From positions 248,001 through 312,000 of the forward strand of contig JAHJTN010000005.1 in NCBI GenBank assembly GCA_018829465.1: 64,000 nucleotides of DNA. Reading direction: 5' to 3'. Origin of the DNA: Bacteroidota bacterium. Lineage in GTDB: Bacteria; Bacteroidota; Bacteroidia; Flavobacteriales; Flavobacteriaceae. The notes below the pieces were generated by a model. That model did not search any database. It was not told where the DNA came from and saw only the letters and a program-made list of their open reading frames with translations. Both the position numbers and the translations under genes were made by a program. This document shows, one piece after another, positions 5,001-48,230 of this stretch (positions within the stretch are counted from its first letter, which is position 1; every line of letters starts with the position of its first letter).

Positions 5001-6508
5001 TTTACAATCCTTACGAAAGTGCCTACATATTGATGTACGCAACGATTGCAATATACACGCTTTCGTTGTTGTTGATCTTTTTTTACAGCTTGGCCCAGCT
5101 AAACCTGCTGATAAATTATCTAAAATCAAAGAAAAAGCAAGACCACAGCCCTCAATTAAACTTCGAAAATCCGGAAGAGATTCCGTTTGTCACCATACAG
5201 TTGCCCGTTTACAATGAGTTGTACGTCATGGAGCGTTTGCTTGATTGTATTAGCAAAATGGCATATCCGAGGGAGAAGCTAGAAATTCAAGTGCTGGATG
5301 ATTCTACTGACGAATCTGTTGACACCACAGCCGCGCATATTCAAAAACTGAAAAAACAAGGTTTGGATATTTTGCACATCCGCCGAACCAACAGAAGTGG
5401 TTTTAAAGCCGGTGCACTCAAGGAAGGTCTGAAAACAGCCAAAGGGGAATTTATCGCTATTTTTGACGCAGATTTTTTACCCGCTTCAGATTTTTTATAC
5501 AAAACCATACCCTATTTTAAAGATCCAAAAATAGGCGTGGTACAAACGCGTTGGGGTCATATTAACAGAGATTACTCCATACTTACCAAAATTCAAGCAC
5601 TGGCTTTGGATGCGCATTTCACTTTGGAACAAGTGGGCAGAAACAGCAAAGGCCATTTTATTAATTTTAACGGCACCGCAGGTGTTTGGCGTGCTAGCTG
5701 TATTTATGACGCCGGAAACTGGCAAGGAGACACACTCACCGAGGACTTGGATTTGAGTTATCGTGCGCAGCTCAAAGGTTGGCAATTTAAATATTTGGTA
5801 GATGTAGAATCGCCCGCAGAATTGCCCGTTGCTATAAGCGCCGCGAGATCACAACAGTTTCGCTGGAACAAAGGTGGCGCCGAAAACTTTTCTAAAATGT
5901 CTTCAAAAGTCATTCATTCGCATTTGCCTTTCAAAACTAAGGTGCACGGAATACTGCACTTACTCAACAGTACCATGTTTTTGAATGTGCTGATTGTGGG
6001 TGTGCTAAGCGTCCCGATGCTCTATATCAAAAATACTTTTGGCCACCTTTCCGGTTATTTTTACGTCACCGGATTTTTTATCATTACAACCGTGATTTTA
6101 TTTATCTGCTACTGGCATACTTTTAAAGCCACGCATGGTGGCGGTTTTGTAAAGTTTTTGCGATATATCGGTGAATTTGTTACTTTTTATGCCATTGCTA
6201 TGGGATTCTCGCTCCACAATTCCATCGCTGTTTACGAAGGTCACATGGGTAAAAAGAGTGAATTTGTACGAACACCCAAATTCAACATCAATTCACTGAC
6301 AGACAAGTGGAAAGGAAACAAATACCTGGCTAAGAACATATCCAAAAATACCATTTTGGAAGGCGCACTGATGCTCTATTTTCTGTTTGCTATTTGGAGT
6401 GCTTTCACCGTTGGTAAAAACGGAGATTTTGGTTTGCTCCCCTTCCATCTGATGCTTTTTATCGGATTCGGATTCGTCTTTTTCAATTCAATTTCCGCTA
6501 AGGCTTGA
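4997..6508 (+). CDS. Membrane-bound processive family 2 glycosyltransferase (cellulose synthase-like)
   Basis: A 503-residue GT2 with two N-terminal hydrophobic segments, a cytoplasmic catalytic domain and four or five C-terminal spans. The catalytic motifs of processive transferases are present: DDSTDES, FDADFLP, TEDLDLSYRA and QQFRW (the QxxRW motif). This arrangement is used by cellulose synthase, mannan synthase and ceramide glucosyltransferase relatives. GTG start overlapping the previous TGA (GTGA) indicates translational coupling. It might polymerise a beta-linked glycan or glycosylate a membrane lipid; which of the two is not decidable here. Confidence 0.85.
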   Translation: MIYNPYESAYILMYATIAIYTLSLLLIFFYSLAQLNLLINYLKSKKKQDHSPQLNFENPEEIPFVTIQLPVYNELYVMERLLDCISKMAYPREKLEIQVLDDSTDESVDTTAAHIQKLKKQGLDILHIRRTNRSGFKAGALKEGLKTAKGEFIAIFDADFLPASDFLYKTIPYFKDPKIGVVQTRWGHINRDYSILTKIQALALDAHFTLEQVGRNSKGHFINFNGTAGVWRASCIYDAGNWQGDTLTEDLDLSYRAQLKGWQFKYLVDVESPAELPVAISAARSQQFRWNKGGAENFSKMSSKVIHSHLPFKTKVHGILHLLNSTMFLNVLIVGVLSVPMLYIKNTFGHLSGYFYVTGFFIITTVILFICYWHTFKATHGGGFVKFLRYIGEFVTFYAIAMGFSLHNSIAVYEGHMGKKSEFVRTPKFNINSLTDKWKGNKYLAKNISKNTILEGALMLYFLFAIWSAFTVGKNGDFGLLPFHLMLFIGFGFVFFNSISAKA

Positions 6509-42972: not shown

Positions 42973-43248
42973 GGTAAAGACAGGAAAATTATTGGTAAAA
43001 GTCTTGAGAACGGGACTTTGCTATAGAATTTCGAAAAGATTGATTGAAGGAAAAAAAACGTAGAACAACAGTTTGGATACATGGCAAGTTTTTGCAGTAA
43101 GTTCACCATCCGTTTCTGTAATATTTTTCTAATTTAGCAGAAAGTGCAGCCATTTCAGTTTACAACCAATCCCAAGATAAAAATATTTGACAGCCAACAC
43201 ATAAACCATTAAATTCGTACCAAAAAAACGCAACTAAAAGCTAAATTT

Positions 43249-43998
43249 ATGAAAAAACAATCTCTATCAAAATCGTTTATCATTGCCTTCTCGCTATTTT
43301 TCGGACTTGTTTTGTTGGGCTTTTTTATCTTCAAAGGCCTAAAAACATTTAGCGACAAAGACCGGGTAGTCACCGTGAAAGGATTGGCCGAAATGAATAT
43401 GACAGCCACTTCCGCTTCTATCGAATTAAATTTTTCGTTCTCGGGCGATCATTTACAAGAATTAATTAGGCGGACAGATGACAAGAAAAACGCCATCATT
43501 AGCTATTTGACAGAAAATGGATTTGATAAAAACGACATCACCATACAAAATATGGGCGTAACCGACCTTCAGAAATACTACGAAACCGTTTGGCGAAATG
43601 ATGAACAAGTACCCGTAAAAATAGACCGGTACACCATAGTACAAAGTTTAACAGTACGGTCGACAGATGTAAAAAACACCGAAGATAAAACTGCAAAAAT
43701 AAGATTGGATTTGGCGAGCAAGGATTTAACCAGCAATATTTATACGGCTTATGATTTTCCCGATTTGAATTCGATAAAACCCGAATTGATTGCCGAAAGC
43801 ACCAAAAATGCGCGCATAGCAGGGGAGCAATTTGCCAACGATTCGCAAGCCAAATTGGGCAAAATAAAAACCGCTTCGCAGGGGCAAATTACCATTGCCG
43901 GAAAGTATTATTACGACGAAGACCTTAGCGATTTACCCAAGGAACCCTACATTCAAAAAGCAAGGGTCGTAAGCACGATAGTTTTCTTCTTAGAATGA
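43249..43998 (+). CDS. SIMPL-domain (DUF541) periplasmic protein
   Basis: A 249-residue protein with an N-terminal membrane anchor or signal (residues about 10-30) and a SIMPL/DUF541 domain: VVTVKGLAEMNMTATSASIEL, then YTIVQSLTVRSTDV and NARIAGEQFANDSQAKLGKI. SIMPL proteins such as BP26 and YggE are envelope proteins of poorly known role, linked to oxidative stress. A weak hairpin (CCCGGCTTTTAGCGGG, starting near 44007) follows. It faces the peptide island that begins downstream on the other strand. Confidence 0.85.
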   Translation: MKKQSLSKSFIIAFSLFFGLVLLGFFIFKGLKTFSDKDRVVTVKGLAEMNMTATSASIELNFSFSGDHLQELIRRTDDKKNAIISYLTENGFDKNDITIQNMGVTDLQKYYETVWRNDEQVPVKIDRYTIVQSLTVRSTDVKNTEDKTAKIRLDLASKDLTSNIYTAYDFPDLNSIKPELIAESTKNARIAGEQFANDSQAKLGKIKTASQGQITIAGKYYYDEDLSDLPKEPYIQKARVVSTIVFFLE

Positions 43999-44105
43999 CT
44001 TAAACCCGGCTTTTAGCGGGATTTCTGAGGCGCTGGGTCTCCCGACTTCGGAGTGCTGGTTATTTTTAAGTGTTTCATTCGGGAAATTAGTTTTTGGCTA
44101 TAAAA

Positions 44106-44133
44106 AAACCGCCCTTTTGGTTGGGGGCGGTTT
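44106..44133 (-). terminator. Strong intrinsic terminator of peptide unit III
   Basis: Read on the minus strand: AAACCGCCC, loop, GGGCGGTTT followed by a T run. It closes the transcript carrying the peptide genes at 44557, 44337 and 44163. Confidence 0.8.
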
Positions 44134-44162
44134 ACATTTACACACTATGAATTCGCAAGGGT

Positions 44163-44327
44163 TTATTCGATATTGGTTTTATAATACAACCTCTCAATGG
44201 AATTCAGACCCGCTTTAAAATCTTCAGAATGTTCAACAGCATCGTTTATTGACAATATCAACAAGAATACAATTAATAAGATGATGTTTAGCAAAATTTT
44301 TGATGTATGTTTTGGTCTGTCTTTCAT
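44163..44327 (-). CDS. Small membrane peptide with EDFKAGLN tail, no GG leader
   Basis: A 54-residue peptide. Residues 10-28 are a hydrophobic span (KILLNIILLIVFLLILSI), preceded by basic residues. The tail HSEDFKAGLNSIE closely matches NPDDFKAGYNAIR of the GG-leader peptide encoded just upstream, yet this one lacks the MKN leader and the double glycine. It follows that gene by 9 bp and precedes a strong terminator. It could be an immunity or decoy partner or a divergent copy of the peptide; I do not recognise its family. Confidence 0.6.
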   Translation of the reverse strand: MKDRPKHTSKILLNIILLIVFLLILSINDAVEHSEDFKAGLNSIERLYYKTNIE

Positions 44328-44336
44328 TTTGATTAA

Positions 44337-44522
44337 CTATAAAGCATCGTAAAAATCTCCTCTTATTGCATTGTAACCAGCCTTAAAATCGTCTGGATTG
44401 TTGTCTGCATCGTTTATCATTGCAATTGCCAAGCCCAGACAGAATAAAGCCCATCCACCGTTTATGCTTTCTGTTTCAATCATACATAACGAGACAACTC
44501 CAAATTTAGATATATTTTTCAT
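44337..44522 (-). CDS. Double-glycine-leader peptide (bacteriocin-like), 61 residues
   Basis: A 61-residue precursor. Leader MKNISKFGVVSLCMIETESINGG (given here as two parts, MKNISKFGVVSL and CMIETESINGG) ends in the GG processing site at 22-23. The mature part WALFCLGLAIAMINDADN is hydrophobic and then acidic, ending in DDFKAGYNAIRGDFYDAL. This resembles class IIb-type peptides (lactobin A/cerein 7B-like annotations in Bacteroidota). It is second of three genes behind repeat copy 1, 34 bp after the 44557 gene. Confidence 0.68.
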   Translation of the reverse strand: MKNISKFGVVSLCMIETESINGGWALFCLGLAIAMINDADNNPDDFKAGYNAIRGDFYDAL

Positions 44523-44556
44523 TTATTTTTCATTTAAAAATTTGTAAAATAATAAT

Positions 44557-44733
44557 TCAAAAACCGGTAGATGTTGCATAAGTTTTAACACCATTATGAT
44601 CATAGAGATCATTCGGGCCGGATAAAACTCCGACTAATACACCTAGTATTTTAGCCAAAAAACCCCCAGCCGTAAACTCAAGCTTCTCGGTGGTTTGTAA
44701 TTCTGTCACTCCAAAATGCTTTAAATTTTTCAT
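44557..44733 (-). CDS. Double-glycine-leader peptide, 58 residues
   Basis: A 58-residue precursor not long enough for many gene finders. Leader MKNLKHFGVTELQTTEKL then EFTAGG, cut expected after G24. The mature peptide FLAKILGVLVGVLSG is a hydrophobic helix with GxxxG-like spacing, then a polar tail (PNDLYDHNGVKTYATSTGF). The ATG is immediately downstream of repeat copy 1 (44734-44804), with the same spacing as in the other two repeat-led peptide genes. Function inferred: secreted bacteriocin or signal peptide. Confidence 0.68.
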   Translation of the reverse strand: MKNLKHFGVTELQTTEKLEFTAGGFLAKILGVLVGVLSGPNDLYDHNGVKTYATSTGF

Positions 44734-44804
44734 AAAGTTAAAAATTTTAATTAAACAATGATTTTTTTGTAAACAAGTTTTTCGCGCGGTTTTTTGTTTT
44801 ACAG
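44734..44804 (-). promoter_or_regulatory. Peptide-gene upstream repeat, copy 1
   Basis: 71 bp that is nearly identical to 45719-45789 and 46997-47064. On the minus strand it reads from AAAACAAAAAACCGCGCG through TTTAATTAAA (a 10-bp palindrome) to the ATG. Here two bases differ from the other copies. Probably a shared promoter or operator. The rest of the gap to 44956 shows no clear gene; a 35-codon frame at 44808-44915 is not convincing. Confidence 0.8.
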
Positions 44805-44956
44805 TAGCTAAATTAAATTCCTATACTCTGATTGCATTGGAGTAAAGCATTTTTTTGCACCCTTCAGAAAATCATTTTTTTCAAACACTTTCAAAGCCAT
44901 CGTTGTTTTCTGCATAAGGTTTTGCTAAAGAAAAGAGCTAAAATATGATTGTTTAA

Positions 44957-45451
44957 TTAAAACAGATATTTTAAAGTGAAGACAAATAAGTTGTAACCTA
45001 AGTGAATTAAAACCATTAAAAGAGGTGATAAATACAAACCATTATCACGAGATCTTATAATCAAATAAGCATAACACCAAATTGAACCAAGGCATGAAAA
45101 AAAGATTAAATCTACAAGAAGAAAAGCATTAAAAAAATGTGCAAGCCCAAAAAAAAGACCAACGATAATGATTGTATACCTGCTTTTAAATTTTAAAAAT
45201 CTCAAAAGTTCTATTGGTAAAAACTGAAAAAGAACAGTTTCGATAATCGGTGCAAAAACAGCTGACTTCAGTAAATAAAAAAAATAATTCTGTTCTATTT
45301 TAGACGAATTAACACTAACTGAGTTATCAAACAAGTTGGTTAGATAAGCATACACTATCGAAAAGAAAATGGATATGAAAATAAAACATAAACCTAACCT
45401 AAAAAATTTGGTTTTTCGAAAGAAGTAATCAATTTTTCTGATCATTTTCAT
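44957..45451 (-). CDS. CPBP-family (CAAX protease-like) membrane protein, variant motif 1
   Basis: A 164-residue polytopic membrane protein of the CPBP/Abi type. Motif 1 reads APIIETVLFQ where EExxxR is expected, so the second Glu and the Arg are replaced. Motif 2 FGLAHFFNA (FxxxH) and motif 3 LIHLGYN (HxxxN) are present. CPBP proteins beside bacteriocin genes act in immunity or peptide maturation in other bacteria. It starts 61 bp after the 45512 peptide gene with a hairpin between them, so it is probably expressed by read-through. Confidence 0.78.
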   Translation of the reverse strand: MKMIRKIDYFFRKTKFFRLGLCFIFISIFFSIVYAYLTNLFDNSVSVNSSKIEQNYFFYLLKSAVFAPIIETVLFQFLPIELLRFLKFKSRYTIIIVGLFFGLAHFFNAFLLVDLIFFSCLGSIWCYAYLIIRSRDNGLYLSPLLMVLIHLGYNLFVFTLKYLF

Positions 45452-45456
45452 AATTA

Positions 45457-45485
45457 AAGGCTTGCAAATTTTACTTACAAGCCTT
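45457..45485 (-). terminator. Hairpin between peptide gene and CPBP gene, unit II
   Basis: AAGGCTTG (45457-45464) and CAAGCCTT (45478-45485) form an 8-bp stem with a 13-base loop; the T run on the minus strand is weak. It lies directly before the CPBP start at 45451 and may be a leaky terminator. Confidence 0.6.
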
Positions 45486-45511
45486 AAAAGTTTTCAAATA
45501 TAAATTGTAAA

Positions 45512-45718
45512 TTATAACTTGCCGTGTGAATCCATGTAACCACCATACCCACCACTGTATTCACCTAATGCATCTATGGTAGCGTCGAGTACATTATCAA
45601 CAATATAACCTACTACAGCATCGGCTATTCTTTCGCACCATTTTCCCCTTCCGCCCACTATAGTGTAAATCTCCCGGGCATCCAGCTCGGTGAGTTGCAA
45701 ACTTTCTAAATTTTTCAT
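45512..45718 (-). CDS. Double-glycine-leader peptide with Gly/Tyr-rich tail, 68 residues
   Basis: A 68-residue precursor. Leader MKNLESLQLTELDAREIYTI then VGG, cut expected after G23. The mature part begins RGKWCERIADAVVGYIV, has one Cys (C28) and ends with the glycine- and tyrosine-rich YSGGYGGYMDSHGKL. A longer frame from 45874 would translate the conserved upstream repeat, so the ATG at 45718, placed as in the sister genes, is the start. Followed by a hairpin and the first CPBP gene. Confidence 0.7.
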   Translation of the reverse strand: MKNLESLQLTELDAREIYTIVGGRGKWCERIADAVVGYIVDNVLDATIDALGEYSGGYGGYMDSHGKL

Positions 45719-45789
45719 AAAGTTAAAAATTTTAATTAAACATTGATTTTTTTGTAAACAAATTTTTCGCGCGGTTTTTTGTTTTACAG
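45719..45789 (-). promoter_or_regulatory. Peptide-gene upstream repeat, copy 2
   Basis: 71 bp, identical over nearly its full length to copy 3 and differing slightly from copy 1. It starts at the base next to the ATG of the 45512 gene. Confidence 0.82.
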
Positions 45790-45793
45790 GTAT

Positions 45794-45820
45794 AAAAAAG
45801 CCCGACAGTAAAAGAGGGCC
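45794..45820 (-). terminator. Terminator after the second CPBP gene
   Basis: On the minus strand GCCC, loop, GGGC followed by TTTTTT. It isolates the 46349/45887 transcript from repeat copy 2. Confidence 0.6.
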
Positions 45821-45886
45821 TAAATTCATACAAAAAACCCAAATAATTAAGGAGTTAATAACAAAAAAATTCAAAAATTAATGGTG

Positions 45887-46345
45887 TTATAGAACATGAA
45901 ATATTTCTATTAGTAAGAACCCAATTAAATTATAAATTGAGTGTAATAAAATTGTTAAACCACTTGCCATTAAAAGTCCTTTTTTCTCTTTTACAACTAA
46001 ATAAAATGCATTCAACCCAATTGAGCCAAAATAAGTCATGATAAGGTATGCAACACTATATGTATGTATTAAAGCAAAAACAATGCTAGCCAATAAAATA
46101 ATCAAATATTTGTTTTTTATAAAAGAGTTCAGTAATTCTACAGGTAAAACGTTAAAAAACATTGTCTCAAGAATAGGAGCAAAAATGACTACTAAAAAAA
46201 ATATATGTAGAAGTGATTTATTTTCCATAGAATTTTCACCAAAATCTACATCAAAAAAATTCGGAATCAATGCTAAAATTATCTGGATAATTAAAATACC
46301 CACAAATAGAAAAAATGTTTTTGTTTTTAATAAATATTCAAACAT
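45887..46345 (-). CDS. CPBP-family membrane protein, variant motif 1, second copy
   Basis: A 152-residue polytopic membrane protein, paralogous to the one at 44957. Motif 1 reads APILETMFFN, again with Thr in place of the second Glu and Asn in place of Arg. Motif 2 is FALIHTYSV and motif 3 LLHSIYN. The shared blocks LPVELL and LPIELL after motif 1 support a common origin. It starts 3 bp after a small membrane protein gene (46349), so the two are translated together. Confidence 0.78.
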   Translation of the reverse strand: MFEYLLKTKTFFLFVGILIIQIILALIPNFFDVDFGENSMENKSLLHIFFLVVIFAPILETMFFNVLPVELLNSFIKNKYLIILLASIVFALIHTYSVAYLIMTYFGSIGLNAFYLVVKEKKGLLMASGLTILLHSIYNLIGFLLIEIFHVL

Positions 46346-46348
46346 GCT

Positions 46349-46507
46349 TTATCTTTTTTTATAAAAATAAACTAAAATAAATATGCATAGAAAAATATTT
46401 AATAATGAAGTTTTATTGGCTTCATAATTAAATATATCTGTTATGTCTACACTTAAAATATTTACAACCAAAATAAATACAGTTGCGAATAATAAAACCT
46501 TTCTCAT
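46349..46507 (-). CDS. Small two-span membrane protein (possible immunity protein)
   Basis: A 52-residue protein with two hydrophobic stretches, VLLFATVFILVVNIL and SLLNIFLCIFILVYFY, separated by a short acidic loop, and a basic end (KKR). No GG leader. Its stop is 3 bp before the CPBP start. Small basic-ended membrane proteins next to bacteriocin genes are often immunity proteins; that role is inferred from context only. Confidence 0.5.
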   Translation of the reverse strand: MRKVLLFATVFILVVNILSVDITDIFNYEANKTSLLNIFLCIFILVYFYKKR

Positions 46508-46607
46508 ACTATTTATTTCTATAAAAATTCATTTATTAACTAAAACAATAGAAATCAATGCTATCTATCAATTACAATTAAAGTTTATCTCTTGTGATTT
46601 AATAAAA

Positions 46608-46636
46608 AAAGAGGTCTTCTTAAAAAAAACCTCTTT
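46608..46636 (-). terminator. Hairpin after peptide genes of unit I
   Basis: On the minus strand AAAGAGGT, loop, ACCTCTTT followed by a T run. It lies between the 46656 peptide gene and the 46349/45887 membrane genes. Confidence 0.72.
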
Positions 46637-46655
46637 AAAATGATTGTCATCAAGT

Positions 46656-46802
46656 CTATTGGGTTGACCACACAATTATTTCGTTGGTAAAAAATAATTT
46701 ACCTAAAAATTGATCTACAGAACCCACGGCTTTACCAAGATAATACCAACCTGATTCTCCCCCTGAAATTTCGATTAATTCTTTTTCTGTTAAATTTTCC
46801 AT
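46656..46802 (-). CDS. Double-glycine-leader peptide with short leader, 48 residues
   Basis: A 48-residue precursor. The short leader MENLTEKELIEISGG ends at G15 and has the ELxEIxGG pattern of classical double-glycine leaders. The mature part ESGWYYLGKAVGSVDQFLGK is amphipathic, then FFTNEIIVWSTQ. It starts 17 bp after the 46820 gene and shares its transcript, so the two may form a two-peptide pair. A gene this short is easily missed. Confidence 0.68.
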   Translation of the reverse strand: MENLTEKELIEISGGESGWYYLGKAVGSVDQFLGKLFFTNEIIVWSTQ

Positions 46803-46819
46803 AGTTTTAAAATCTAATG

Positions 46820-46996
46820 TTAATTATGAGCATCTTGAAACCCTCTTGAATAGTCAGCAAACGCTTGATCCCAATCAGTATTTAAAATCGCTATGGCAAG
46901 AGCAACACCACCACATACGTAGCCAAGCCCTCCTTTTGTTTCATTAATTTCTTTAGTGCTCATCTCCTGAACACCTAATTTATCTAAATTTTTCAT
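46820..46996 (-). CDS. Double-glycine-leader peptide, 58 residues
   Basis: A 58-residue precursor. Leader MKNLDKLGVQEMSTKEINET then KGG, cut expected after G23. The mature part LGYVCGGVALAIAILN is hydrophobic with one Cys, followed by TDWDQAFADYSRGFQDAHN, whose aromatic/acidic tail recalls DDFKAGYNA of the 44337 peptide. The ATG abuts repeat copy 3. First gene of unit I. Confidence 0.7.
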   Translation of the reverse strand: MKNLDKLGVQEMSTKEINETKGGLGYVCGGVALAIAILNTDWDQAFADYSRGFQDAHN

Positions 46997-47064
46997 AAAG
47001 TTAAAAATTTTAATTAAACATTGATTTTTTTGTAAACAAATTTTTCGCGCGGTTTTTTGTTTTA
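46997..47064 (-). promoter_or_regulatory. Peptide-gene upstream repeat, copy 3
   Basis: 68 bp matching copies 1 and 2 from the ATG upstream to TAAAACAAAAAACCGCGCG. It diverges just beyond, toward the purE promoter on the other strand. Confidence 0.82.
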
Positions 47065-47089
47065 GATATGTCAGTTTAAGATGGATTAA

Positions 47090-47697: not shown

Positions 47698-47716
47698 AAT
47701 GTTAATACTGCTGATA

Positions 47717-47953
47717 ATGACTTCACATGATATTAAAAAAACGCTTATTTCAAGCATCTCCGAAATTGATGATGCACAATTTCTGAGTGCCATACAAACC
47801 ATTGTCGATTCAAAATTGAAATCTCAAACCATGCGCTTAACACCTGCTCAACATCAAGAGATTATACCGTCCAAAAAACAGATTGAGGCCGGTTTATTTA
47901 TTACCCAAACCGAACTTGACAAAGAATTTGACCAATGGCTCAGCAAACGGTAG
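47717..47953 (+). CDS. Antitoxin-like small protein of a RelE/ParE-type pair
   Basis: A 78-residue acidic-to-neutral helical protein (TSHDIKKTLISSISEIDD, then FLSAIQTIVDSKL) with a C-terminus ITQTELDKEFDQWLSKR that probably wraps the toxin. It has no recognisable DNA-binding domain. It overlaps the toxin reading frame by 19 bp, typical of antitoxin-first type II pairs. The ATG at 47717 is preferred because the promoter element ends at 47697 and the earlier ATG at 47699 would precede the transcript start. Confidence 0.75.
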   Translation: MTSHDIKKTLISSISEIDDAQFLSAIQTIVDSKLKSQTMRLTPAQHQEIIPSKKQIEAGLFITQTELDKEFDQWLSKR

Positions 47954-48230
47954 TTTGGTCGCAAAAAGCACAAATCAAGCTTTTTATAATCCTGGAATTT
48001 TACACCGTCCGAAACGGAAGCCCCGCATACGCAAATAAATTATATGCAAAATTCAAAAAAGAACTCAAAACACTTTTCAAACAACCCGAAACCGGCATCC
48101 TGACAGACTGCAAAAACGTCCGGGCCTTATCGTTGACGAATACATATTATTCTACGAAGCCTCTAAAAATAAAACCATTGTGCATGCCCTTTGGGATTGC
48201 AGACAAAACCCGGAAGATTTAAAAATATGA
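47935..48230 (+). pseudogene. RelE/ParE-type toxin with a one-base deletion
   Basis: The N-terminal two thirds read normally (VVWSQKAQIKLFIILEFYT, ELKTLFKQPETGI, NVR). At 48121-48126 the frame must shift by one missing base. Beyond it, the other frame gives LIVDEYILFYEASKNKTIVH then ALWDCRQNPEDLKI, the expected C-terminus, ending at the TGA 48228-48230. A G lost from the CGGG run explains it. Without the shift, the product has an unrelated 32-residue tail. The toxin is probably inactive unless the base is a sequencing error. Confidence 0.85.

Follow-up and report, generated by a model that had tools for sequence, protein, structure and literature searches.

Gene content and organization of the island

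The window analysed here is a stretch of 64,000 nucleotides (nt) from a Flavobacteriaceae genome (assembly GCA_018829465.1, contig JAHJTN010000005.1), and the subject of this report is an island of nine small genes that lies in it on the minus strand between argS/SIMPL and purE. The genes form three units, each headed by a copy of a 94-nt repeat (Table 1), and encode five precursor peptides with a double-glycine (GG) leader, two CPBP membrane proteins, and two further small membrane proteins, an inventory that an earlier note on this DNA had proposed and that was confirmed in full. The island may represent an orphaned bacteriocin-immunity array. Two observations go beyond the earlier note, namely the empty site in a sister species and the resemblance between a small membrane protein and the neighbouring peptide.

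The first unit consists of precursors 5 and 4, a hairpin, a small membrane protein, and CPBP 2; the second of precursor 3, a hairpin, and CPBP 1; and the third of precursors 2 and 1 followed by the other small membrane protein. The repeat copies show 89 and 91% identity to the reference copy (97-100% over 75 nt) and extend into the first codons of each unit's first precursor. Further matches in the genome are limited to three pieces of 17-37 nt each. A genome-wide regulon was therefore rejected, as only three long copies exist, all of them within the island. Weak matches in relatives (E <= 1e-3) are mostly short AT-rich pieces, with those in G005, G016, and the sister species (G002) located at peptide genes. 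Every copy carries a promoter-like TTTACA-18-TAAAAT, sites of this kind showing no excess over shuffled sequences (17 versus 17.2 expected), and no structured 5' region was found in the repeat (folding z +1.46).

The stretch around the hairpin of unit 1 (46565-46660) has a folding z of -2.26, and 4 of 200 shuffles fold equally well; that of unit 2 (45452-45515) has a z of -3.37, which none of 200 shuffles equals. Between the peptide and membrane genes of unit 3 no stable hairpin was found; the leader sequence before CPBP 1, on its unit 3 side, folds no better than its shuffles. The scheme of repeat, peptide genes, hairpin, and membrane genes that had been suggested for all units holds as regards the repeats, the gene order, and the common strand, and the stable hairpin is confined to two of the three units.

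Table 1. Features of the island, in window positions
Feature	Position	Strand	Remarks
Repeat copy 1	46971..47064	-	94 nt; presumed promoter/5' region and first codons of unit 1
GG precursor 5	46820..46996	-	58 residues; long leader MKNLDKLGVQEMSTKEINETKGG 23 residues, mature part 35 residues
GG precursor 4	46656..46802	-	48 residues; short leader MENLTEKELIEISGG 15 residues, mature part 33 residues
Hairpin followed by T-run, between precursor 4 and membrane genes	46608..46636	-	Folding compared with shuffles
Small membrane protein of unit 1, candidate immunity/accessory	46349..46507	-	52 residues, two hydrophobic stretches
CPBP 2	45887..46345	-	152 residues; subfamily with E-T, not EE, in motif 1
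Repeat copy 2	45693..45786	-	Nucleotide match
GG precursor 3	45512..45718	-	68 residues; leader MKNLESLQLTELDAREIYTIVGG 23 residues, mature part 45 residues
Hairpin between precursor 3 and CPBP 1	45457..45485	-	Folding compared with shuffles
CPBP 1	44957..45451	-	164 residues; PF02517
Repeat copy 3	44708..44801	-	Nucleotide match
GG precursor 2	44557..44733	-	58 residues; leader 24 residues, mature part 34 residues
GG precursor 1	44337..44522	-	61 residues; leader 23 residues, mature part 38 residues ending AIAMINDADNNPDDFKAGYNAIRGDFYDAL
Small membrane protein of unit 3, leaderless, one helix, candidate mimic-type immunity	44163..44327	-	54 residues; tail SINDAVEHSEDFKAGLNSIERLYY resembles mature precursor 1
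Stretch absent between argS and purE in sister species G002	43002..47083	.	SIMPL (DUF541) gene and island

Small membrane proteins resembling the neighbouring peptide

Several loci hold leaderless one-helix proteins of 35-55 residues whose tail copies the mature peptide encoded alongside. In the window this applies to the small membrane protein of unit 3, which aligns with mature precursor 1 with a score of 65 (reached by none of 5000 shuffles; 14 of 28 aligned residues identical) and, in a further comparison, with 17 of 45 identical residues at E 1e-8. No peptide from another locus reaches the score of the cognate one. The mature parts of the precursors had been described as unrelated, but that of precursor 1 is clearly similar to this membrane protein. 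The net charge of the unit 3 protein is +3 in the N-terminal flank and -3 in the tail, and in 12 of 13 hand-picked proteins of this type the N-terminal flank exceeds the tail in positive charge.

The resemblance was tested across loci with small hydrophobic frames that passed filters for a distance of at most 1.5 kb from a GG precursor and for the same strand; each was trimmed to the segment between the midpoint of its most hydrophobic window and its C-terminus, and this segment was scored against all mature peptides. For 28 proteins and 55 peptides from 25 loci, the best same-locus scores sum to 808, as opposed to 547 (standard deviation (SD) 38) after relabelling, and none of 20,000 relabellings reached the observed sum. 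This first set included four mature peptides (precursor 1 of the window, two from G160, and one from G272) and one membrane protein (from G002) that had escaped the filters and were added by hand, and two frames belonging to longer, ordinary genes (L074 1594-1818 and L120 3194-3439) were dropped by hand, as was precursor 1 of the window where it was listed as a membrane frame. The sum was 766 versus 544 (SD 36; 0 of 20,000) without these additions and removals, 689 versus 477 (SD 35; 0 of 20,000) without the window, and 493 versus 407 (SD 27; 32 of 20,000) without the window and the three best proteins, while shuffling of the tails reached the observed sum in 0 of 500 cases in every rerun. A second set of 11 proteins, from which three frames were dropped by hand and which has genomes in common with the first set, likewise gave 0 of 20,000. 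The same-locus resemblance is real for a part of these small proteins.

Further strong cases, each unmatched in 5000 shuffles, occur in G005, G018, G191 (6846), and G272. A protein of G191, which belongs to another genus, also matches the peptide of the window's precursor 1 (score 68, 0 of 5000 shuffles), and no GG precursor of that type was found in G191 at E <= 0.05. We read this frame as an orphan of the kind that an immunity bank would hold. The same array (L136) contains, at 5805-5924, a second copy of the mimic frame at 6315-6476 that has no in-frame start codon, a sign of decay inside the array.

Precursor peptides and their relatives

GG leaders are cut after the double glycine and exported by transporters combining a C39 peptidase with an ATP-binding cassette (C39-ABC), and they are also used by pheromones. 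All five precursors are minus-strand frames that start with ATG, with the GG ending at residue 15 to 24; for precursor 3, the program-made list of open reading frames places the start at an upstream TTG. Frames of 40-75 residues that combine M[KE]N[LI] with an early GG are represented in the whole window by these five only, and no leader-type frame emerged in 1000 first-order Markov simulations of the 3.1-kb region. The leaders show the conserved hydrophobic/acidic pattern of C39-exported peptides, and the mature parts (33-45 residues) are hydrophobic and diverse with at most one cysteine each. Precursor 5 scores 87 bits against leader profile A2, of which its own sequence is one row. Precursor 4 passes TIGR01847 (16.6 bits, cut-off 15.7), misses NF038035 (25.4 bits, cut-off 37), and resembles a short-leader peptide of G140 (L124 6993-7157; 16 of 49 residues identical, E 3e-8 in a single comparison). 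Precursors 5 and 4 as well as 2 and 1 are encoded in pairs, a gene pairing that may reflect a two-peptide character.

The description of the system as undescribed as a unit can be upheld only in part, since two of eight relatives' peptides scanned (L066 249-440 and L121 2675-2854) pass the cut-off of TIGR03949 (class IIb bacteriocin, lactobin A/cerein 7B family). Membership in the bacteroidetocins was ruled out, as none of the five mature parts has more than one cysteine, compared with the four required according to the available excerpt of PMC6671954. The island is placed neither there nor in TIGR03949 because in each case a defining feature was tested and found lacking.

The leaders are conserved in relatives. 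The profile was built from seven precursors, four of which are from this genus (three from the window and one from G002), and the matches of the window itself are therefore to be expected. At E <= 0.01 the leader family has matches in 19 of the 199 family genomes searched, and at E <= 1e-4 in 29 of 397; these counts are not independent because the genomes are related to each other. A C39-ABC frame of at least 650 residues is present in 25 of 30 leader-bearing genomes (the 29 and G191) and lies within 10 kb of a leader in 18 of 30, and any C39 match was obtained in 17 of 40 relatives drawn irrespective of leaders. The leader genomes without such a frame are G099, G230 (89 and 84% complete, respectively), G286, G386, and the present one (G000). 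A helix-turn-helix (HTH) gene beside the peptides occurs in 50 of 397 genomes, with 16 of 29 leader genomes as compared with 34 of 368 others (Fisher p 8e-9, the genomes not being independent); this usual neighbour is missing from the present assembly, where its best match is no better than E 0.022.

The fullest locus, in G191 (L136), comprises HlyD (PF13437), a C39-ABC protein (PF03412, PF00664, PF00005), three GG peptides, several small membrane proteins, and a CPBP protein assigned to the same subfamily as those of the window (PF02517, 34.3 bits, E-T motif). The co-occurrence of the leader family, the CPBP subfamily, and C39-ABC exporters in relatives, best seen in this locus, supports the multi-peptide bacteriocin-like system that had been proposed.

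CPBP proteins

CPBP proteins serve as immunity factors near bacteriocins. CPBP 1 and CPBP 2 pass the Pfam model PF02517 with 30.3 and 32.7 bits (gathering cut-off 22.4) and share 30% identity; the ortholog of CPBP 2 in G002 is 82% identical (85% over 505 nt of DNA). Motif 1, EExxxR, is replaced by E-T-V-L-F-Q and E-T-M-F-F-N, its first E being kept in five of five aligned proteins. The motifs FxxxH and HxxxN are present, and F90, H94, H135, and N139 are invariant in the same number of aligned proteins. With E, H, H, and N conserved, a catalytic role may persist despite the altered motif 1. For SilX, a CAAX-type protein of Streptococcus anginosus, the available part of PMC9298176 gives no immunity and a link to signal peptide processing.

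Probable acquisition of the island

In the sister species G002, the homologous blocks around argS and purE are separated by approximately 75 nt, compared with 4082 nt here. The contig of G002 equals record L064, Flavobacteriales bacterium CG_4_9_14_3_um_filter_40_17, as judged by identical frames. The GC content is 23-32% in 44500-46999, as opposed to 36-48% in the sampled flanks. The SIMPL/DUF541 gene (43249-43998; PF04402, 58.2 bits) lies inside the stretch absent from G002.

Another G002 contig contains the CPBP 2 ortholog together with a precursor whose leader-start DNA is 95% identical to that of precursor 3 over 61 nt; beyond the leader start, the mature parts are not alignable. As the same leader start is joined to another mature part, the difference is read as a putative peptide cassette exchange, in either direction. 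A mobile element was rejected, CPBP 2 having no match in 72,556 plasmid records and CPBP 1 none in viral contigs, and PADLOC returned no match for five proteins.

The exporter question

The earlier note had assigned export to a transporter outside the window, for which the genome offers no support. The sole PF03412 match in the 3.07-Mb assembly (99.5% complete, 55 contigs) is a truncated remnant, a 36-residue domain start that covers positions 3-36 of 133 (34.2 bits as protein). It runs, in another frame, into a fragment that resembles HlyD C-termini; this fragment has no Pfam match of its own and aligns at 34-59% with frames that follow the C39-ABC genes in the loci of six relatives. The remnant is nearest to a C39 class found beside cysteine-rich peptides (76% to G028, 68% to G014), compared with 40% (G016) and 33% (G005) to exporters beside the leaders of the present type. 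It belongs to another class and was therefore probably not the exporter of the island in any case. A differently truncated relative is found in G001, of the same genus (97% over 35 residues). The five ABC_membrane frames in the genome measure 558-642 residues, compared with 673-780 for the C39-ABC frames of relatives, and are therefore too short to hold C39. With a single truncated C39 and no room for this domain in the ABC_membrane frames, an exporter elsewhere in the genome was rejected.

The two truncated C39 genes of the genus, with different break points (L065 9315-9702 on C16 of this genome and L072 920-1090 in G001), are 93% identical over 106 nt. Adjoining the remnant in this genome, L065 9741-14828 encodes two proteins whose C-terminal ends resemble thioredoxin, together with a SusC-plug/carboxypeptidase-like protein, as judged by eye, possibly the remains of another peptide-export locus.

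Proposed function and alternative explanations

Taking these observations together, we lean with modest confidence towards a bacteriocin-immunity array of the two-peptide (class IIb-like) kind that was gained by horizontal transfer and is now orphaned, and in which the membrane proteins probably protect against such peptides. Two-peptide toxins are membrane-active. In the proposed mechanism, the precursors would be toxins that are cut after GG and exported by C39-ABC where one exists, the repeats and shared leader starts would allow homologous recombination to swap peptide-immunity cassettes, and the CPBP and small membrane proteins would give immunity. The small membrane protein of unit 3 is predicted to sit N-in/C-out with a single helix, and its copied tail would therefore face the periplasm, the expected site of action of an incoming peptide. 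At the outer surface of the inner membrane it would thereby present a close copy of mature precursor 1's C-terminal half, with which the incoming peptide or its partner would pair to a dead-end complex, so that the pore is not completed. A host without an exporter would gain protection rather than a weapon, like pneumococci without working BlpAB that keep the immunity region.

As a more general proposal, put forward tentatively and a little short of evenly balanced, an immunity-protein family could act by subunit mimicry: leaderless, membrane-anchored proteins that nearly copy the mature peptide's C-terminal half would be exchanged as cassettes along with the peptides and also kept as a peptide-free 'immunity bank', and their sequence would reveal the guarded peptide. 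Among titles and abstract starts of the open-licence PubMed Central literature, neither peptide-copying immunity proteins nor a Flavobacteriales locus of this type was found described, and the immunity mechanism for two-peptide bacteriocins is called unknown in the available excerpt of PMC6957408. If the small partners copy the peptide that they neutralize, specificity would be readable from sequence and could be swapped by tail exchange, and a test would need just a single synthetic peptide and a single small gene. The window would further constitute a Gram-negative analogue of 'immunity-only' bacteriocin loci that lack an exporter, for which the sister species shows both the empty site and the leader joined to another mature part.

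Several results weigh against this interpretation. For only seven of the 28 proteins is the same-locus score higher than that with any peptide from other loci, and most give no clear signal; the pattern is therefore confined to a part of them. In wholly new genomes (five proteins) the test gave a weak 458 of 20,000. The resemblance of the unit 1 membrane protein to precursor 5 lacks significance, with 426 of 5000 shuffles scoring as high, its tail is no closer to a mature peptide of its own locus than to those of other loci, and no mimic-type partner was found for precursors 2-5. None of the window's five peptides passes TIGR03949 (12.4, 12.4, or no match; cut-off 21.5 bits). Same-locus similarity could arise by gene duplication without an immunity function, and the absent exporter could sit on an unbinned replicon or reflect an assembly error.

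According to one alternative, the unit 3 protein is a duplicated bacteriocin gene that lost its leader, either a relic or a leaderless second peptide instead of an immunity protein. Its homology to the neighbouring precursor and the simplicity of leader loss by duplication speak for this origin, but intact one-helix frames with a positive N-terminal flank recur in several genera and G191 retains such a frame without a matching GG peptide, so that we regard it as unlikely while giving it serious consideration. Slightly less likely still is a working bacteriocin producer whose exporter was missed, with the C39-ABC gene lost or broken in assembly, located on an unbinned plasmid, or replaced by another ABC transporter. 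An assembly in 55 contigs, a C39 start joined to a HlyD-like end that could be a mis-join, and the intact frames and leaders of all five precursors would fit such a producer; against it stand the completeness of 99.5%, the other class of the remnant with its differently broken relative in G001, and the lack of any ABC_membrane frame of sufficient length.

That the island is instead a signalling array, with the GG peptides as pheromones and the membrane proteins as receptors or processing factors, appears improbable. The island contains neither a histidine kinase nor a response regulator, its mature parts are 33-45 residues long, hydrophobic, and diverse, and relatives' peptides match bacteriocin families, even if pheromones also use GG leaders, precursor 4 weakly matches ComC and EntF induction-factor models via its leader, and SilX of S. 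anginosus is implicated in signal peptide processing (available part of PMC9298176). Chance frames in AT-rich DNA, which the 23-32% GC of the region would favour, are already contradicted by the simulations without a single leader frame and by leader and CPBP relatives elsewhere, and retain next to no probability.

Comparison with known systems

The published systems are considered here as far as the available excerpts of the cited papers describe them. With class IIb bacteriocins (TIGR03949), the island shares the type of GG leader, the short hydrophobic mature peptides, and the frequent pairing of a long-leader with a short-leader peptide; it differs in its host, a member of the Flavobacteriales and not a lactic acid bacterium, and in partner membrane proteins that copy the peptide. 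The pneumococcal blp region likewise holds GG peptides and immunity genes in a variable array, with repeated promoters in front (PMC6422914), and in many strains it persists although a functional transporter of its own is lacking (PMC6422914; approximately 75% of strains in PMC12150690). In contrast to blp, the island has no two-component system, and for the ComAB route that pneumococci can take as a substitute there is no counterpart here, as no second C39-ABC was found. For the small one-helix protein, the nearest precedent is CbnZ, which gives immunity against the two-peptide bacteriocin carnobacteriocin XY with 42 residues and one transmembrane helix, and whose mechanism is stated to be unknown (PMC6957408). 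Unlike the protein of the window, CbnZ has no reported likeness to CbnX or CbnY in that excerpt.

The CPBP/Abi immunity proteins SkkI, PlnI, and PlnL belong to the same Rce1-like fold family (PF02517) and adjoin bacteriocin genes; the island proteins keep FxxxH and the final H with HxxxN but have E-T..F-N/Q in place of EExxxR. Bacteroidetocins are also GG-leader peptides of Bacteroidota with a C39-ABC exporter, yet have four cysteines, leaders of 15-16 residues, and no immunity protein according to the excerpt of PMC6671954, whereas the window combines mature parts of at most one cysteine with candidate immunity genes. CdzC/CdzD-CdzI of Caulobacter combines two small membrane-active proteins with a small inner-membrane immunity protein, but is type I secreted and contact-dependent and, as far as PMC5380434 is available, has no such GG-leader island.

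Further features of the window and of related loci

Two small overlapping frames at window positions 47699-48222 appear toxin-antitoxin-like by eye and gave no Pfam match at E 0.01 in the stretches scanned. They are located in a second alignment gap with G002 (617 nt here, 195 nt there), and a similar-looking pair lies near the exporter of G005 (L066 5234-5754).

The HTH proteins beside relatives' peptide genes (L067 6158-6475, L124 6252-6569, L125 5255-5572, L066 863-1195, L074 8556-8864, and L121 2955-3248) have approximately 105 residues and end in L-x3-E-x3-I-x-GG followed by a short tail, with E83, I87, G89, and G90 invariant in six of six aligned sequences. This ending fits the GG-leader consensus within a putative DNA-binding protein, and a C39 peptidase might in this way cleave its own regulator or bind to it. 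More distant members often retain a related ending, some of them without GG, and because it is absent from these members the motif is kept outside the proposed system. The 3.7-kb contig L121 of G018 is a denser array throughout its length, with at least four GG peptides, one further leader without GG, and several small membrane frames.

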